From: Candidatus Gastranaerophilales bacterium
GTDB lineage: Bacteria; Cyanobacteriota; Vampirovibrionia; Gastranaerophilales; Gastranaerophilaceae
Reading direction: 5' to 3'
Assembly (NCBI GenBank): GCA_944322675.1
Contig: CALUPO010000001.1
Coordinates: forward strand, 62,001 to 126,000
DNA: 64,000 bases
In this document: positions 47,757 through 55,656 of the stretch, one piece after another
Layout of the letters: each line of letters opens with the position of its first letter
Numbering within the stretch: position 1 is the first letter of the stretch
The notes under the pieces: generated by a model
Told to the model about the DNA's origin: nothing
Seen by the model: only the letters and a program-made list of their open reading frames with translations
Databases searched by the model: none
Made by a program: the position numbers and the translations under genes

Positions 47757-47789
47757 AAAAACGGGAATGTATATTACATTCCCGTTTTT
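47757..47789. terminator. Bidirectional terminator between rpsT and the usher gene
   Basis: Perfect 15-bp arms AAAAACGGGAATGTA and TACATTCCCGTTTTT with a 3-base loop; it reaches the stop codon of the usher gene. Confidence 0.92.
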
Positions 47790-50775
47790 ATAATTTATAG
47801 GTATATTCTAAATTTACATTGTCAATAATAACAAAGTCTTCATATTTACAGGGAATATCTACAATAAAGTTTTTTGTATTTTCATCTGGATGTATTTTTA
47901 GTAATTGAAGCAATTCATCAACAATTTTTACATGATATTTTCCAGGTGCCAGCCCTGAAAATGAAAATGTACCATCATCATTTAAATTTGTATAGTCAAT
48001 TTCTTTATTATTTGCATCAAAAATACTTACAACAAGATCATTAAATTTCAAATATTCACCAAACTCATTTTTTATTGTAACTGTACCTTCAATTTGCCCG
48101 GAAGAACTTATTAAACCAAACTCAACCGGTGTAACATTACCATTTTCAACTTTTACAAAACGAATTGGTTTTGTGTTTTTATGAATATTTAAAAAAGTAG
48201 GCAAATTGTCTTCACATAAACTTATATTATATATTCCTTCCTCAAGAGGTACAAGTTTTGTTGCTCCTTTTTTATCCGTATATACAGGCTCATACATATT
48301 TTCAAATTTAATAGGAATATTAGGTATATAAGGCTCAGTCTCATCTTTAAGACCATTCAAATTTAAATCAAGAAACACTTTTGCAACAACTTTTCCCTTA
48401 TTTAAATTATTCATACCTATTGGCTGAATTGACTTATCACCAAAACCATAAACTTCACCAAAATCCAAATTAATACTATGCCTCATATTTGATGGCAAAT
48501 ATATATTATTTATCATTATAAATGGTACTACACTATAATGATAGGCAAGGCTTATTGTCGAGCCCGATTTTAAACGTTTTGTCAATCCAACACCAAAATC
48601 AGTTCCTTTATTTGTGCCGCTATAGTGATATGCTGCATTTAAATTTAAACTTATATCTTTTATCATTGGTGTATTGTAGGAAATTTTAATTTGTTTATAG
48701 TCATTTGTAACATTATCTGATTTTGTGTTTACAATATTATGCGACAAAGTCACATTGCCAAATTTCTTTCCTAAAGGAAAACTTATATCGGTATAAATAT
48801 CTGAATATTTTGAAGAATAACTTATAAAATCAGCTTGATTATAATTATTTTTATAGTTATTTTGCCTTATACCTGTATTTACACTTACATTTTTAAATCT
48901 TTTTGAAAGAGATGCCTCAAACATACCCGTTTGTATTTCACCAATACCATTTGACCCTTCTTTATTTGTAAATTTTATATTTAAATTCGGCCATTTTTGA
49001 AAATTAGTTCTAAAATAAAGACTATAATCATCTACATACATTTTTCCACCATTAAAATAATCAGAAAAATTAGTTAAATATTTTGAATAATTCCCTTGAA
49101 ACATACATTTTTTTATCGTAGTTGAAAGGCTTATATTTCCTCCAAGCCTATCCCAATAAAATCCCCCATTTGACATATTACCTGCCACATAAAAATCTTT
49201 GGAAGAAGAAAATACCCCTCCCTTTATTTGTGTTGTTTTATTTGGATTATAAAACGATTCCCATTTCAAATAATATCCGGGTCCACTTGATAAATTTTCA
49301 ACTCGAGTTGTATTTTGACTTAAAGCTAAATATAATTTTGAATCAAGTTTTTTATTATGTTTTATATTTAAAACATTCATATATGTTATCCCTTCATAAT
49401 TGTTAGGGTTTCTAAAATTTGTAAAGTTTAAGTAATTTTTATTCCCAAAAATACTTTGTAAATAACCATTTTCCTTATTTTGTGATAGTATGCTATCGGC
49501 AATTAAAAAACTCTCATATTTTATTTTTTCATTAAGTGGTTTTTCATATTTAAATCCAGTAACAAATTTTTTTGCATTTGATTCATAGATATAATCATTC
49601 ATAGCAAATATACGGTTTTGATAACCTGAAATACCGGCTATCATATCCTTTTTTGAATTATAGTCTTTTTTATCATTTTCCTTTTCAAAGTCAACATTTA
49701 AAATTTCTTTTAGGTCACCATTTTCTTTAATTTCACTTAATTTTATATTTTTTACTTTATTATAATAATTAATACCCTTTAAAGTGTAATAGCCATTATA
49801 TGTGTCAATATTTTTAATAAATTCCCCATTATTTATTGAAACTTTAATAATTGAACCCTTTGATACCCGTCCTTCAAGTTTTTGAATATCATTCTTATTT
49901 TGCTTATCATCAATATCCTTTATTTGAAGTCCTAAAATATCATGTGACATAGAAAAACCATCAAATTCCCAACTTTGAGGTTTACCAATTGTATATTCAA
50001 AATTTTCAGTTTTATTTCGATATTGTGGAGTTATTCCCGAAAATCCAAATAAATTATCATTATAACTATTTGTTCCTACTTCAAGTGAATAATCACCTGT
50101 TTTTATTTTTCCATTTAAAGTTAAATTTAAATTGTTATTATAATTTAAATTTGTATTTCTATTATTTTGATAAATCTGTGCATAAGAATCCGAGAGCATA
50201 CTTTGTCGAACGGTTAATGAATCAAACGTCACCGCTTTTTGTTTTTGTGGTAAATAAATATCATCATATCCTTTAGCCTTTTTTTCACCTTTAACTAAAA
50301 AACCTTGAAATATAGGCTCACTTTTTTCGCAATCGGATGAAATAGAATTATTTTCTCTGGTTTTAATATAAGTAGTAAAATTCACAAAATCCGAAGTAAT
50401 TTTATAACCTAAAATATCATTAAGAGCTTTATCAATAACAAAATATTCATTTTTGACATCTGTAATTCCATTTTTAATATAAAAAACTTTATAATGTAAT
50501 GGTTTATTATTTTTATATAATTGATTATTAACTATTTTATAATCTTTAAAACTTATACTTTTTTGTGCATGATTTTGTGTGTATTCTACATCAAATAACT
50601 CCAGAATAACCTTAAGAGGCAAATAAATTTCATTATTGTGAGCAACAACTTCAATTTCATATTCATTTTCATCATCAACATTTAAAGATGAAATTATATT
50701 TTCATATGCAAAACAATAATTTATATTAAAAATAAAAATAAAACATACAAATATATGTATAAACAACTTAAACAT
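47788..50775 (-). CDS. Divergent outer membrane usher-like protein with C-terminal beta-sandwich repeats
   Basis: The 995-residue protein has a signal peptide, an N-terminal region (YLPLKVILELFDVEYTQ) of the kind ushers use to receive chaperone-subunit complexes, and a long middle (about 180-760) of alternating polar and hydrophobic strands with many Tyr/Asn/Gly turns, as in a beta barrel. From about 790 there are Ig-like or SdrD-B-like modules (GKVVAKVFLDLNLNGLKDET; GQIEGTVTIKNEFGEYL; GTFSFSGLAPGKYHVKI). It follows a chaperone-like and three pilin-like genes, which supports an usher. It overlaps the last subunit gene by 1 bp (TAATG). It is longer than typical 800-residue ushers. Confidence 0.65.
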   Translation of the reverse strand: MFKLFIHIFVCFIFIFNINYCFAYENIISSLNVDDENEYEIEVVAHNNEIYLPLKVILELFDVEYTQNHAQKSISFKDYKIVNNQLYKNNKPLHYKVFYIKNGITDVKNEYFVIDKALNDILGYKITSDFVNFTTYIKTRENNSISSDCEKSEPIFQGFLVKGEKKAKGYDDIYLPQKQKAVTFDSLTVRQSMLSDSYAQIYQNNRNTNLNYNNNLNLTLNGKIKTGDYSLEVGTNSYNDNLFGFSGITPQYRNKTENFEYTIGKPQSWEFDGFSMSHDILGLQIKDIDDKQNKNDIQKLEGRVSKGSIIKVSINNGEFIKNIDTYNGYYTLKGINYYNKVKNIKLSEIKENGDLKEILNVDFEKENDKKDYNSKKDMIAGISGYQNRIFAMNDYIYESNAKKFVTGFKYEKPLNEKIKYESFLIADSILSQNKENGYLQSIFGNKNYLNFTNFRNPNNYEGITYMNVLNIKHNKKLDSKLYLALSQNTTRVENLSSGPGYYLKWESFYNPNKTTQIKGGVFSSSKDFYVAGNMSNGGFYWDRLGGNISLSTTIKKCMFQGNYSKYLTNFSDYFNGGKMYVDDYSLYFRTNFQKWPNLNIKFTNKEGSNGIGEIQTGMFEASLSKRFKNVSVNTGIRQNNYKNNYNQADFISYSSKYSDIYTDISFPLGKKFGNVTLSHNIVNTKSDNVTNDYKQIKISYNTPMIKDISLNLNAAYHYSGTNKGTDFGVGLTKRLKSGSTISLAYHYSVVPFIMINNIYLPSNMRHSINLDFGEVYGFGDKSIQPIGMNNLNKGKVVAKVFLDLNLNGLKDETEPYIPNIPIKFENMYEPVYTDKKGATKLVPLEEGIYNISLCEDNLPTFLNIHKNTKPIRFVKVENGNVTPVEFGLISSSGQIEGTVTIKNEFGEYLKFNDLVVSIFDANNKEIDYTNLNDDGTFSFSGLAPGKYHVKIVDELLQLLKIHPDENTKNFIVDIPCKYEDFVIIDNVNLEYTYKL

Positions 50776-51404
50776 TAGGGTATATTATCCAGATAAACCA
50801 TAACTTCAAAAGTATTATCACCATCAAGTGCAGTTTGACTATCATAAGTTCCGGGTTTGGGTGTAGTTCCTATGTTAAGTGAAATATTAGTATTGCCATT
50901 TAGAATTGTACAGTTATAATATCCTTGATTTGATTCATCAAGTTGATATTCAAGCGTTCCTTGATTATCAATATTTAAAGTGCCTAAATATGCAATAGCT
51001 TCTTCATTAATTTGAGGTGTTGAATTTGGTGCTTTACAATCTGCAATTGAAGCTGCTGTCGGTGGATATGTATTGTTTGCAAGAACAACATAACAACTTG
51101 CATTTGACCCTATTGAACTTTGTTGTGAGGAAATTGCACTTATTGAGGTATTATTTGAATCATTTACAATTGCTTTTAATCTTATATTATTTAAATCTTC
51201 ATTTGACGAAACTAAAAAATTAATTGTCAAATTTGACCCCAAAGTCCCGTTATCAGGATTTATATTTGTACTATAATTACCTTGGATATCAACTGAAACT
51301 GTAGGTGTAACTTCAATTAAAAGATTATTTAAAGCAACAATATCCGCATATGCTTTATTTGATATAAAAAATAAAAATAACAATAAAAATTTTAAGAATT
51401 TCAA
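50775..51404 (-). CDS. Pilin-like subunit 3
   Basis: The 209-residue exported protein (signal peptide MKFLKFLLLFLFFISNKAYA) has a strand-rich body: IEVTPTVSVDIQGNYSTNIN, then DNGTLGSNLTINFLVSS, and a C-terminal GDNTFEVMVYLD strand. It resembles subunits 1 and 2 in order and in the motif G.L...L...F.I.S, but is more divergent. Its stop codon overlaps the start of the usher gene. It may be a minor subunit or assembly terminator. Confidence 0.6.
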   Translation of the reverse strand: MKFLKFLLLFLFFISNKAYADIVALNNLLIEVTPTVSVDIQGNYSTNINPDNGTLGSNLTINFLVSSNEDLNNIRLKAIVNDSNNTSISAISSQQSSIGSNASCYVVLANNTYPPTAASIADCKAPNSTPQINEEAIAYLGTLNIDNQGTLEYQLDESNQGYYNCTILNGNTNISLNIGTTPKPGTYDSQTALDGDNTFEVMVYLDNIP

Positions 51405-51439
51405 GATTTATCTCTCCATAAATAATAAATAAAATTAAA

Positions 51440-52072
51440 TTAAATAAATGATAAGGTTATAGTTGCTTGATAATTACCCCCTTCATCACATGTTGAATAA
51501 GTATTTGTAAGAGGCAATTCACCACCTGGAATTTCGACATTTAAAGCTGTTGCTCCACGTTTTAAAAGTGTTATATCCCATCTGTTAAAGTTATTGTCAT
51601 AACGAACATCCATAACGTTTGGAATATCTTCTAAATTGGTCATACGATAAGCAATTACATTTGGATTATTATCACTATTTAAAGCACCATTAAATTTTTT
51701 AACGCAATCAACACAATGTGAAGGCGGCAAAACATTTGAATTTGTAAGAGCTATATAGTGATATTCAAGACTAAACAACGGAAAGAAAAATGCATTAACA
51801 GGACCATCCTGAGTGTTACATGTTGCTGTTAATTGAAGTGATTTTTGCGAATTTGAATTTGTAACAATTAAAAATCCGGGTGTTAATGCATTACTTAACT
51901 TGCCATCGTTTACATCGATATTTGCACTCAATTGACCACCATTTGCAACAATTGATTTAATTTCTCCATTTGTTGCACTTAATTTTGTTATTGGCGTTTG
52001 AGCACTATACGAAATTGAATTTGAAATAAATAAACCCAATATTGATAGTAAAAATAAGGTTTGTTTCTTCAT
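51440..52072 (-). CDS. Pilin-like subunit 2
   Basis: The 210-residue protein has a signal peptide ending near SYSA and a beta-rich body with KLSATNGEIKSIVANGGQLS, DGKLSNALTPGFLIVTNSNS and SLQLTATCNT...GPVNAFF. Subunit 1 has the matching TPLDPGFKIISN and LTLTATTTSSSGEVNAF, so the two are paralogues. The alternating residues after the signal peptide could be a donor strand of the type used in chaperone-usher polymerisation. Two Cys pairs (HCVDC; CDEGG) may form disulfides. Confidence 0.65.
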   Translation of the reverse strand: MKKQTLFLLSILGLFISNSISYSAQTPITKLSATNGEIKSIVANGGQLSANIDVNDGKLSNALTPGFLIVTNSNSQKSLQLTATCNTQDGPVNAFFFPLFSLEYHYIALTNSNVLPPSHCVDCVKKFNGALNSDNNPNVIAYRMTNLEDIPNVMDVRYDNNFNRWDITLLKRGATALNVEIPGGELPLTNTYSTCDEGGNYQATITLSFI

Positions 52073-52106
52073 TTTTTTAGCCTTTAAATTTTCATTGTAA
52101 AAAGTA

Positions 52107-52721
52107 TTAATTATAAGAAAGAATAACTATTGCCTGATAACTTCCAGATTCGTCATTACCATTAAAAGTATTTGGCTTGGCACTTGTTGCAGGAACTACA
52201 AGTTGTGTTATTGTATCACCTTGATGGGTTAAATTTACATCATAATAATTTCCAGAAGAATTCCAGCTGTATTCAAGCTGACCTTCAATATTTGTAGGAG
52301 GCGTAACAGCATAACATATTACATTAGGATTTGATGCTGCCACAGGTGAGTCACTTTGTGCATTTGTTACTGCATCACTTGTAGGCGGAGTATTAACATT
52401 TGCAAGTGCTATATATACATTTCCATTTGAAGAAGAAAAAGCATTAACTTCACCACTTGACGATGTTGTTGTTGCTGTTAATGTTAAAGCCTGACTTGTT
52501 CCAACATTTGATATAATTTTAAACCCGGGATCAAGCGGTGTTGTTAAACTACCTGTATCATCAATTGTTGTTGAAACATTTCCACCATATGATTCAACTG
52601 ATGAAATCGTTCCAAGCACAGCTGTCACTGTTTGTGACGCTATAGGGGCTGCTTTAACATCATTAAAACCTGTAAAACCAATAACACTTAAAGCTATTGT
52701 CGACATTAATAATTTTTTCAT
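52107..52721 (-). CDS. Pilin-like subunit 1 (probably the major subunit)
   Basis: The 204-residue exported protein (signal peptide ending KAAP) starts with SQTVTAVLGTISSVESYGGN, an alternating hydrophobic stretch like a donor strand, followed by SLTTPLDPGFKIISNVGT, ALTLTATTTSSSGEVNAF and a final YQAIVILSYN strand. It is first after the chaperone gene, as major subunits often are. Paralogy to 51440-52072 is visible by eye. No Cys pair conserved with subunit 2 except one Cys near the C-terminal third. Confidence 0.65.
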   Translation of the reverse strand: MKKLLMSTIALSVIGFTGFNDVKAAPIASQTVTAVLGTISSVESYGGNVSTTIDDTGSLTTPLDPGFKIISNVGTSQALTLTATTTSSSGEVNAFSSSNGNVYIALANVNTPPTSDAVTNAQSDSPVAASNPNVICYAVTPPTNIEGQLEYSWNSSGNYYDVNLTHQGDTITQLVVPATSAKPNTFNGNDESGSYQAIVILSYN

Positions 52722-52749
52722 AAAAAACTCCTCCCTTTTTTTACATTAT

Positions 52750-53604
52750 TTATATTTTATTTTGATTAATATTCATATTTGATGTAAAACTTGTTTCTTT
52801 TTTTAAGACTTTTTCTTTATCTTGTTCATCTTTATAAGTTAGAACAAATTTTAGGTTATAATTTTGATTTTTATTAAGAATACAATCCTTCAAATCTATT
52901 TTTTGTTCTTTTTCAAGATAGGCTCCCTGACCACCGGGTAAATTTGAGGATATAACTTTAAATTTCTTTATAAGATTGTTATCATTATCAGTTATGTATC
53001 CCCATCCGTTGTACCGGACTTTACTTGTACCATTTGAAGTTATTTTATATGAACAGTTAAGAAATCCATTATCCTCTCTGGCATTTAAACTTACAAGTTG
53101 TGCTTTTTTTGTAAAATTACCCTTATCTACATAAACAGGCACTCCAACACGTGTTTTTACAAGTATTTTTCCTCCTATGTTTCCATTTAGTTTACTTAGT
53201 AAAACTTCCTTAGTATTAACATCTTCTAAAAACAGCATAAGACGTGATTCACCATTTTGAAGTGTTTTTAATCCGGTAATTGTAAGCCTCACTTTTTGAG
53301 GCTGACCTTTTTGGCATGTAAATTCTGTAGGATAAAATTTTATTTTTCCCATTAAAGAATCACTTTGACCATTATCTCTTAATTCAATAAAACGACCTTT
53401 TTCATCATATTTAAAAAATACAGGATATATCTTAAAACGAATTGTTTCATTTATACCGCCTGAAACATTAAAAGCTGTTGATATATAATCTTTTTTTGTT
53501 GTATTTGCATTTATTTCAATTGTCGATGGCGAAATTTTAATAGCTGCATTCGATTCCATGATTGAAATAAATATTATAAAAATTAATAAAAATATTTTTC
53601 TCAT
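52750..53604 (-). CDS. PapD-like periplasmic pilus chaperone
   Basis: The 284-residue protein has a signal peptide and then two Ig-like domains. The first starts IKISPSTIEINANTTKKDYI and has the PapD-like KIKFYPTEFTCQKGQPQKVR followed by LTITGL, a typical G1-like strand. The second begins near 165 with KAQLVSLNAREDNGFLNCSY. It is placed between the adhesin-like and the subunit genes, as in chaperone-usher loci. A dedicated chaperone is expected to cap subunits by donor-strand complementation. Similarity to classical PapD is weak by eye. Confidence 0.7.
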   Translation of the reverse strand: MRKIFLLIFIIFISIMESNAAIKISPSTIEINANTTKKDYISTAFNVSGGINETIRFKIYPVFFKYDEKGRFIELRDNGQSDSLMGKIKFYPTEFTCQKGQPQKVRLTITGLKTLQNGESRLMLFLEDVNTKEVLLSKLNGNIGGKILVKTRVGVPVYVDKGNFTKKAQLVSLNAREDNGFLNCSYKITSNGTSKVRYNGWGYITDNDNNLIKKFKVISSNLPGGQGAYLEKEQKIDLKDCILNKNQNYNLKFVLTYKDEQDKEKVLKKETSFTSNMNINQNKI

Positions 53605-53606
53605 AA

Positions 53607-54509
53607 TTAGTATGTTTCCAATCTATATTCAAACTCTTCTAGCTTTGATCCTGGTTTCAAAAATTTATCCTTAGGGCCACAAATCAAATAATCTAAATTA
53701 ATGTATTGCTTATCAAGTTTCTTTAAAGCATCGTTAAAAGTTGCTTTTCCACTTGCTATAAGTATTTCGTCATTATTTAGAATAGTAAAATTATTTTTTA
53801 AATAAGTGTTAATTTCATTAGTTGCATTTAAAACTTTTATAAAAGGAGTAATCTTTAAATTATCATTTATATCATTTGAATTACGTTTTACATATAATCT
53901 CCAATCTTTATTAGATGTAATATATAAAGTTAAAGGCATATTGAGATTTTGTTTTGTATTTTTTTGTAAAATATTTTCTTTATCTATTTTCAAATTTACT
54001 AATTGATTTGAAAATTCTAATTTAGCTATTTCACTAATTTCAAAATTATAGTTATAAATATTTTGAGCAATTATATTTTCATTTTCGTCAGTTAATGTAA
54101 ATTTAATATCACAAGTATAAAACCCCGGTTTATCATAATCCTGAGTATTTATCCCAAAATTAAAATTTAAACTATTTGCACCAAGAAGATTATTTGAAGT
54201 TTTAATTTCCACAGGTTTTGAATTTTCAAAATTACTAAATGGTATTTGACCTAAATTAGATATTTCAAACCTTGATAAAGGAATATTAAAATTAGGATTG
54301 GTTTGATTTGTAATACTAAAGTCTAAAACTTGAGCATAAAGTCGCCAGGGACAAGCACTATAAAAAGACAAATTAACAGTTTGTATGATTTTATTACCAA
54401 ATTTTTGACTTTGAGAAATTTTTTCAAATCTTAAGTTATTTGCAAAAACATAATTTATACTCAAAATTATATTTACAAATAAAATTAAAATAATTTTTAA
54501 TAATTTCAT
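53607..54509 (-). CDS. Two-domain exported protein, possible pilus tip adhesin
   Basis: The 300-residue protein has a signal peptide (MKLLKIILILFVNIILSINY) and two related domains: the first with SACPWRLYAQVLDFSI near 51-66 and the second with SNKDWRLYVKRNSN near 200-213; each is followed by strands. It is the first gene of the pilus locus and ends 2 bp before the chaperone gene. Two-domain proteins in such loci usually act as tip adhesins, but a second chaperone or unrelated function remains possible. Confidence 0.55.
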   Translation of the reverse strand: MKLLKIILILFVNIILSINYVFANNLRFEKISQSQKFGNKIIQTVNLSFYSACPWRLYAQVLDFSITNQTNPNFNIPLSRFEISNLGQIPFSNFENSKPVEIKTSNNLLGANSLNFNFGINTQDYDKPGFYTCDIKFTLTDENENIIAQNIYNYNFEISEIAKLEFSNQLVNLKIDKENILQKNTKQNLNMPLTLYITSNKDWRLYVKRNSNDINDNLKITPFIKVLNATNEINTYLKNNFTILNNDEILIASGKATFNDALKKLDKQYINLDYLICGPKDKFLKPGSKLEEFEYRLETY

Positions 54510-54690
54510 AAACTGACCCTAAAAATTCTTTTAACTTGATTGCTTACTTTTTTATTTTTTATTGAAAAAAAGATTTAGCACTTGCCTGGATATTTATAAA
54601 ATACGGGTAATATAAAATTTATACATTTGAGCAATATAAAAACTTAAAATTTAATTTAACTTGATTTTAGAATAGTCAGGAAAATTGTTT

Positions 54691-55656
54691 ATGATAAAAA
54701 AAATTACTAATTTATTATTGTTACTTTTAATATTAATAAGTCAAATTAATATAATAGCAAAAGCCCAAACAACGCCCGTTGCACAGCAGCACTTATCGGC
54801 TTTTTATACAAAAAATCCGGAAAACTTTGAAGACGAAGAAGAAATAGTGATACCGCAACCTGATGACGAAAACGACCCCACCACACCAGGTCAAAATAAC
54901 GATGATACACAAATTAGTGAAACTATTCCTCAAAATGGTGATGATGGAGGAGGTCTATCAACAGGAGGCATTGTCGGCATAGCTGTCGGCACAGGTGGTG
55001 GTGTAGCTGCAGCAGGAGGTGCTTTAGCCATGGCACCTGTATTTATGGCCGGACTTATTCCAAATGGTATAATTGGTGCTGCCGCTCCTATTGACTGTTA
55101 TGATGAATCAAAAAATTACCTAAGACAAATACTTGTTGAAAACTATAAACCTGATGACATTCAAAAAATAGTTACTCAAAAACGTATCGGAAGTAATTTT
55201 TATATAACTCAAAATGATACAGTTCTAAATAATAATGGTTTTAATATTCAAGAATTTAAAATACCCGATGAGCTTTTTAATTATAAACAAGTTAAAATGA
55301 ATGTAATAATGTATTCAGATCCCTATCGTGATATTGAAGGAGACCCAGAACTTGCATTTGGTGCCTTTAAAAATATTGAATTAAAAACTTTAAGTAAAAA
55401 ATTCGAAACTCAACAATTTCTCCATAATTATATAATGAATCGTTATAAAATGCCTTTAGAAATAAATCTTAAAAACTATGGAGCTGGCAAACAAACCTTA
55501 AGTGGTACTATAGATATGACAAAATTTAAAACAAATAACAACAACTGGGTTGTAGTAAGATATACAAAAGGTGGATTCAATGGCAGAAAAGCAAGACTTG
55601 AAACACCAACACAAATTGTTTATGCATATTTAATAGAATTAATTCCTGTAAAATAA
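54691..55656 (+). CDS. Orphan exported protein with Gly-rich membrane segment
   Basis: I prefer the ATG at 54691, because TCAGGA lies 10 bases before it; a TTG at 54685 is the alternative. After a signal peptide (MIKKITNLLLLLLILISQIN) there is an acidic Pro/Asp-rich linker (about 45-90), then a Gly/Ala-rich hydrophobic segment (GGIVGIAVGTGGGVAAAGGA, about 95-130), and a C-terminal strand-rich domain ending YAYLIELIPVK. It is divergent from the pilus locus and may be part of the envelope. It is not recognised. Confidence 0.6.
   Translation: MIKKITNLLLLLLILISQINIIAKAQTTPVAQQHLSAFYTKNPENFEDEEEIVIPQPDDENDPTTPGQNNDDTQISETIPQNGDDGGGLSTGGIVGIAVGTGGGVAAAGGALAMAPVFMAGLIPNGIIGAAAPIDCYDESKNYLRQILVENYKPDDIQKIVTQKRIGSNFYITQNDTVLNNNGFNIQEFKIPDELFNYKQVKMNVIMYSDPYRDIEGDPELAFGAFKNIELKTLSKKFETQQFLHNYIMNRYKMPLEINLKNYGAGKQTLSGTIDMTKFKTNNNNWVVVRYTKGGFNGRKARLETPTQIVYAYLIELIPVK

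Follow-up and report, generated by a model that had tools for sequence, protein, structure and literature searches.

The stretch of DNA analysed here, a window of 64,000 nucleotides from a Candidatus Gastranaerophilales bacterium (contig CALUPO010000001.1, positions 62,001 to 126,000), contains an operon in which, with high confidence, we see all the parts of a non-classical chaperone-usher system. Few bacterial adhesion organelles have been studied as well as chaperone-usher pili. The operon is a genuine, strongly diverged branch of this known machinery and not a new kind of system, and it is invisible to annotation: Pfam and NCBIfam scans recognised none of its six proteins as chaperone-usher parts, in keeping with a preliminary description of the window in which similarity to the classical systems was called weak by eye. 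Inspection of the open reading frames (ORFs) in the window, whose source genome is 2.1 Mb and 99% complete, found all six genes at 47788-54509 on the minus strand, as that description had listed them, running from the adhesin-like gene through the chaperone and three pilin-like subunits to the usher, with spacings between consecutive genes of 2, 28, 34, 35 and -1 bp. The melainabacterial host that it had supposed, a gut-dwelling member of the cyanobacterial phylum that does not photosynthesise, is also borne out, as the contigs of related loci belong to metagenome-assembled genomes (MAGs) of Candidatus Gastranaerophilales. No paper in the literature searched brought together 'chaperone-usher' and 'Melainabacteria'.

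Predicted usher and chaperone

An AlphaFold2 (AF2) model of the 995-residue protein, built on an alignment of 44 sequences (predicted local distance difference test score, pLDDT, 78.8; predicted template modelling score, pTM, 0.57), has the layout of an usher. An N-terminal domain (residues 25-138) and a disordered linker precede six barrel strands (182-287); these are followed by a small beta-sandwich at about 301-362, in a predicted plug of roughly 80 residues, then by some 18-20 more barrel strands to about residue 800 and by two C-terminal beta domains. DSSP counts about 24-26 barrel strands on the model. In PapC, the plug is located after the sixth barrel strand. When the model was compared with the Protein Data Bank (PDB) by Foldseek, places 1-14 were all taken by FimD and PapC structures (E 7.0e-24 to 7.5e-11), with FimD 3rfz at the top (E=7.0e-24), and the best non-usher outer-membrane barrels, TonB-dependent receptors, appeared from 1.6e-6. 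The earlier proposal of an usher-like barrel is thus supported.

At the sequence level, the usher profile without its C-terminal domains aligned with cyanobacterial PF00577 ushers collinearly over 617 columns (hhalign 94%), against 1.1% for BamA, 0.2% for FhuA and 0.9% for LptD as barrel controls. The comparisons with FimD-type ushers (0.7%) and with EcpC (0.2%) were not significant, which gauges the extent of divergence; only the cyanobacterial PF00577 and the new-type sets matched the profile. The Pfam Usher model PF00577 has no match in the genome itself, in the 146 class genomes or in the 44 family members, and PF00577 ushers occur in 18 of the 386 genomes sampled across the phylum. A PF17210 (SdrD_B) domain lies near the C-terminus (E=1.8e-9) and recurs in 43 of the 44 family members, and the N-terminal domain has a weak Cu_amine_oxidN1-like profile match. 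Both labels were dropped as identities for the usher because they describe sub-domains only.

The chaperone was modelled with higher confidence (AF2, pLDDT 91.9) and shows the two Ig-like domains that its earlier naming as PapD-like implied, with Foldseek matches in the PDB to CfaA (2.5e-9), CsuC (1.8e-8) and PapD (1.9e-7) and, further, to FimC, Caf1M and EcpB. Neither outcome that the preliminary description had named as fatal to its reading, a large protein without a predicted 24-strand-type barrel or a chaperone without a two-domain Ig-like fold, was seen. Pro92, at the kink position, and Arg121, the predicted carboxylate anchor, are present in all 54 chaperone homologues, and Arg197 of domain 2 (D2) in 53 of them. 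These residues align with P60, R89 and R148 of EcpB; the 29-residue spacing from Pro92 to Arg121 is the same in EcpB, and the context of Arg197 (GNSKVR in the family consensus) compares with GNATLR148. A superfamily-wide proline in strand D1 and a diagnostic arginine are common to non-classical chaperones, and Arg89 of CsuC and EcpB grips the C-terminal carboxylate of the subunit, aided by an arginine and a tyrosine of domain 2 (PMC4654587). The D2 anchor positions that we compared were Tyr196 and Arg174 in CsuC and Tyr169 and Arg148 in EcpB. In the alignment with the window chaperone family, an equivalent of Arg89 is absent from FimC and SfmC. Given this difference and the conservation of Pro92, Arg121 and Arg197, the chaperone probably acts in the archaic or alternative manner. 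Classical chaperones have a carboxylate anchor of the Arg8/Lys112 type; in the present family the Arg8 position is variable (L/R/K/I/T) and the basic G1 residue, Arg152, is invariant. The donor strand is I147-V149-T151-V153. Profile similarity to known chaperones is faint: at E<0.01, PapD_N was found in just 5 of 54 family members (best 0.0025), and hhalign comparisons with small Escherichia coli sets were weak (10% for classical, 0.5% for Ecp chaperones).

The closest known systems share some of its features and differ in others. Like Csu, ECP and CFA/I, it has a two-domain Ig chaperone with the superconserved proline and the non-classical arginine, a D2 arginine in a GN(A/S)xxR motif, a donor strand that ends in an Arg-hydrophobic pair and an usher with periplasmic domains. 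Unlike them, it has no detectable direct sequence similarity, a longer chaperone (about 275-284 residues), pilins outside the Pfam pilin families, an usher that ends in SdrD_B/transthyretin-type domains and the operon order adhesin-chaperone-pilin-pilin-usher. With classical PapC and FimD the usher shares its predicted domain layout, the plug after barrel strand 6 and its best structural matches, whereas it differs in the absence of a Pfam Usher match, in C-terminal domains of another type and in having one plug-less clade. The archaic cyanobacterial CccS/CccP/Slr0019 system (SCPU, PapD_N, PF00577) belongs to the same phylum and to the PF00577 type with which the usher profile aligns, but the subunits here are not of the SCPU type (PF05229, 0 of 51 pilins), and PF00577 has the sparse distribution given above.

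Subunits, operon conservation and relatives

The three middle proteins are paralogous, as the preliminary description had it, with shuffle z-scores of 26 for pilins 1 and 2 and of 12 and 6 for pilin 3 against pilins 1 and 2. Pilin 3 is an extra copy that occurs only in this species and its sister species; most relatives have two pilins. The pilins carry signal peptides, and pilin 1 has an N-terminal extension with alternating hydrophobic residues (V32-A34-L36) and a last strand, Y195-A197-V199-L201, just short of the C-terminus. This pattern is consistent with the expectation for donor-strand exchange and with a putative incomplete Ig fold. The product of the first gene, 300 residues long with two halves that look similar by eye, belongs to a family of 44 members (mean identity 41%) whose proteins (about 300 residues) exceed the pilins in size in every case and, with few exceptions, are encoded first in the order. 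No member of this family matched a chaperone-usher family, and profile comparison did not support homology with the pilins; its position and size are consistent with a putative tip or initiating subunit.

An usher search of relatives found the system in 22 of 99 genomes, and a chaperone-profile scan of GTDB species representatives yielded 66 related loci, nearly all on contigs labelled Candidatus Gastranaerophilales or equivalent. By manual count, 52 of the 66 show the same-strand order adhesin-like gene, chaperone, pilin, pilin, single full-length usher, and most of the rest are truncated at contig ends or contain a split usher. The operon recurs in about 60 Gastranaerophilales species; its distribution is patchy, and it is present in 56 of the 383 family genomes. 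One locus (L103) has the public label Acinetobacter, yet its operon is clearly of the Gastranaerophilales type, and it is probably a mislabelled MAG.

In the sister species all six ORFs are intact, with 71-85% identity to the window genome. Remnants or frameshifted copies were found in other relatives (G056, G051, G298 and L033), and the usher is split in L056, L070 and L099. Broken or fragmentary operon copies were noted at L033, L041/L070, L042, L045, L056, L099, L183, L184 and L185. Such copies in several species suggest that the system has been lost repeatedly. For the split ushers, homopolymer slippage as a cause of phase variation was rejected after three junctions showed no long runs.

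Beyond this order, a profile search found chaperone homologues in photosynthetic cyanobacteria (G262, G317, G333 and G224; E about 1e-20 to 1e-25). They adjoin proteins of 1036-1246 residues that share the C-terminal domains of the usher and, in those inspected, contain a plug-like segment, and small subunits lie directly upstream. One of these chaperones (about 1e-25) matches PapD_N at 9.5e-8, above the curated cut-off, and the usher-like protein beside it has a plug-like segment, which bridges the new family and the known one. The cyanobacterial loci (L173-L176) are like the window operon in their homologous chaperone (hhalign 99%), usher C-terminal domains and upstream subunits, and unlike it in the length of their ushers and in that homology of the subunits is undemonstrated. 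Other families of the class also have loci of this kind (L177-L179). Throughout L173-L179, a homologous chaperone, usher-like proteins of 885-1246 residues and small subunits occur together and are missed by the Pfam Usher and pilin models; we regard these loci as a wider uncatalogued branch of the chaperone-usher pathway.

Ushers without a plug and genes beyond the operon

The plug region is shortened in 19 of the 44 ushers: it measures 16-21 residues in 18 of them and 42 in L118, against 83-86 in full-plug ushers, and the barrel segments that flank the missing plug are unchanged in length. In a tree computed without the plug region, the 18 plug-less ushers, from 18 species (L061, L063-L066, L069, L072, L074-L079, L081, L082, L087, L098 and L117), form one clade with support of 100/100; L118, with its reduced plug, stands apart from them on a long branch and is less certain. 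The chaperone, pilin and adhesin-like genes beside the plug-less ushers are intact, and conservation across many species suggests that these ushers are functional. PapC from which the 76-residue plug has been deleted forms a large, open pore (PMC10418385); the plug-less species therefore need another way of gating the pore, unless they tolerate its being open. Without a plug, the pore could be closed, for example, by the C-terminal domains of the usher or by the conserved divergent membrane protein described below. That a clade of gut Melainabacteria builds pili through naturally plug-less ushers, with closure by something else, and that the plug is not obligate, is to us an evenly balanced proposition. 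Such natural plug-less ushers make the purpose of the plug directly testable.

The bounds of the locus as first described hold for the six genes and fall short of its full extent, as a divergently transcribed membrane-protein gene lies beyond them (Table 1). Its product is homologous to the tm245 family of about 245 residues (hmmsearch 1.2e-12, hhalign 96%). A protein of this family and a pilin-like protein of about 160 residues flank 32 related operons, and the N-terminal extension of the latter matches the pilins (hhalign 95%); both probably have an accessory role in the pilus system. Another clade, with 13 loci (L093, L095-L097, L100, L102-L107, L111 and L112), has an additional pilin gene of full size divergent from the pilus operon, followed by bamA (and skp). 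The genes bamA and skp are core outer-membrane assembly genes, and the link of bamA to the pilus operon may be only positional.

Table 1. Coordinates of the operon, of the usher domains and of the divergent neighbour in the window
Feature	Position	Strand	Details
Adhesin-like subunit	53607..54509	-	300 aa; first gene; signal peptide
Periplasmic chaperone	52750..53604	-	284 aa; two Ig-like domains
Pilin-like subunit 1	52107..52721	-	204 aa
Pilin-like subunit 2	51440..52072	-	210 aa
Pilin-like subunit 3	50775..51404	-	209 aa; TTG start with good Shine-Dalgarno
Outer-membrane usher	47788..50775	-	995 aa; 1-bp overlap with pilin 3 gene
Usher N-terminal periplasmic domain	50362..50703	-	residues 25-138
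Usher plug domain	49660..49908	-	residues about 290-372, past the sixth barrel strand
Usher C-terminal domains (two), transthyretin/SdrD_B-like	47791..48369	-	residues about 803-995
Divergent intergenic region, 175 bp	54510..54684	.	presumed promoters, from sequence only
Divergent accessory gene	54685..55656	+	323 aa; signal peptide, Gly-rich transmembrane segment, C-terminal domain

Proposed assembly and alternative readings

Assembly may proceed as follows. The subunits, chaperone and usher, which have signal peptides, would be exported by Sec. The G1 donor strand of the chaperone would then bind each subunit, with Arg121 holding its C-terminal carboxylate in the archaic or alternative manner. 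By analogy with FimD and PapC, chaperone-subunit pairs would dock on the N-terminal domain of the usher, the plug would move aside, and donor-strand exchange through the N-terminal extensions would link the subunits into a polymer. The resulting fibre would consist of pilins, probably with the 300-residue protein at its tip, and could serve in gut adhesion. The divergent membrane protein, which is associated with the operon, may be an accessory factor.

Several observations weigh against a chaperone-usher system. Over whole proteins, the TM-scores reach modest values (usher 0.37-0.45, chaperone about 0.4-0.5); the carboxylate-anchor tyrosine has no clear conservation in the chaperone family, in which the candidate at position 215, of uncertain placement, is Y or F; and the pilins match neither a pilin family nor, by profile search, any PDB structure. 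PDB profile searches with the usher, chaperone, pilin and adhesin alignments returned nothing related to chaperone-usher systems, and the case for homology is therefore built on the fold, on conserved residues and on bridging sequences. In addition, Foldseek places a WxL-interacting protein of Gram-positive bacteria, WxLIP (7e-10), first for the chaperone, so the fold alone does not discriminate. A cyanobacterial homologue of the chaperone (L180:4366-5151, minus strand) likewise scores above the WxLIP_PGBD cut-off, and the two families may therefore be related. These matches would suit a chaperone-like protein that is part of a WxL-type surface complex, next to a large protein that is an unrelated outer-membrane barrel. 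However, WxLIP is a Gram-positive wall protein, the gene order and the non-classical chaperone residues are conserved, and the Foldseek matches of the large protein to ushers surpass those to other barrels by 17 orders of magnitude, which largely refutes this explanation; we regard it as extremely improbable. Nor is it at all probable that the locus is non-functional and in decay: the patchy distribution and the fragments, frameshifted copies and split ushers in relatives would agree with decay, but the six ORFs are intact both here and in the sister species, at a level of identity that selection predicts.

A more serious alternative accepts the usher and chaperone as real and concerns their product, which could be a thin capsule-like or other non-fimbrial surface polymer, or a surface protein secreted by this route. 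Non-fimbrial structures are known from chaperone-usher systems (PMC4390875), and the operon has only two or three small subunits, which are unlike known pilins, and no recognisable adhesin family. Set against this are the larger, nearly always first gene, which is what is expected of a tip subunit, and the alternating hydrophobic residues in the N-terminal extensions of the subunits; we consider a non-fimbrial product unlikely, though it deserves to be taken seriously.

In summary, the chaperone-usher operon of the window extends this family past the reach of current profiles, with a branch that annotation misses entirely. For a widespread and mostly uncultured gut lineage, it provides a candidate adhesion organelle.

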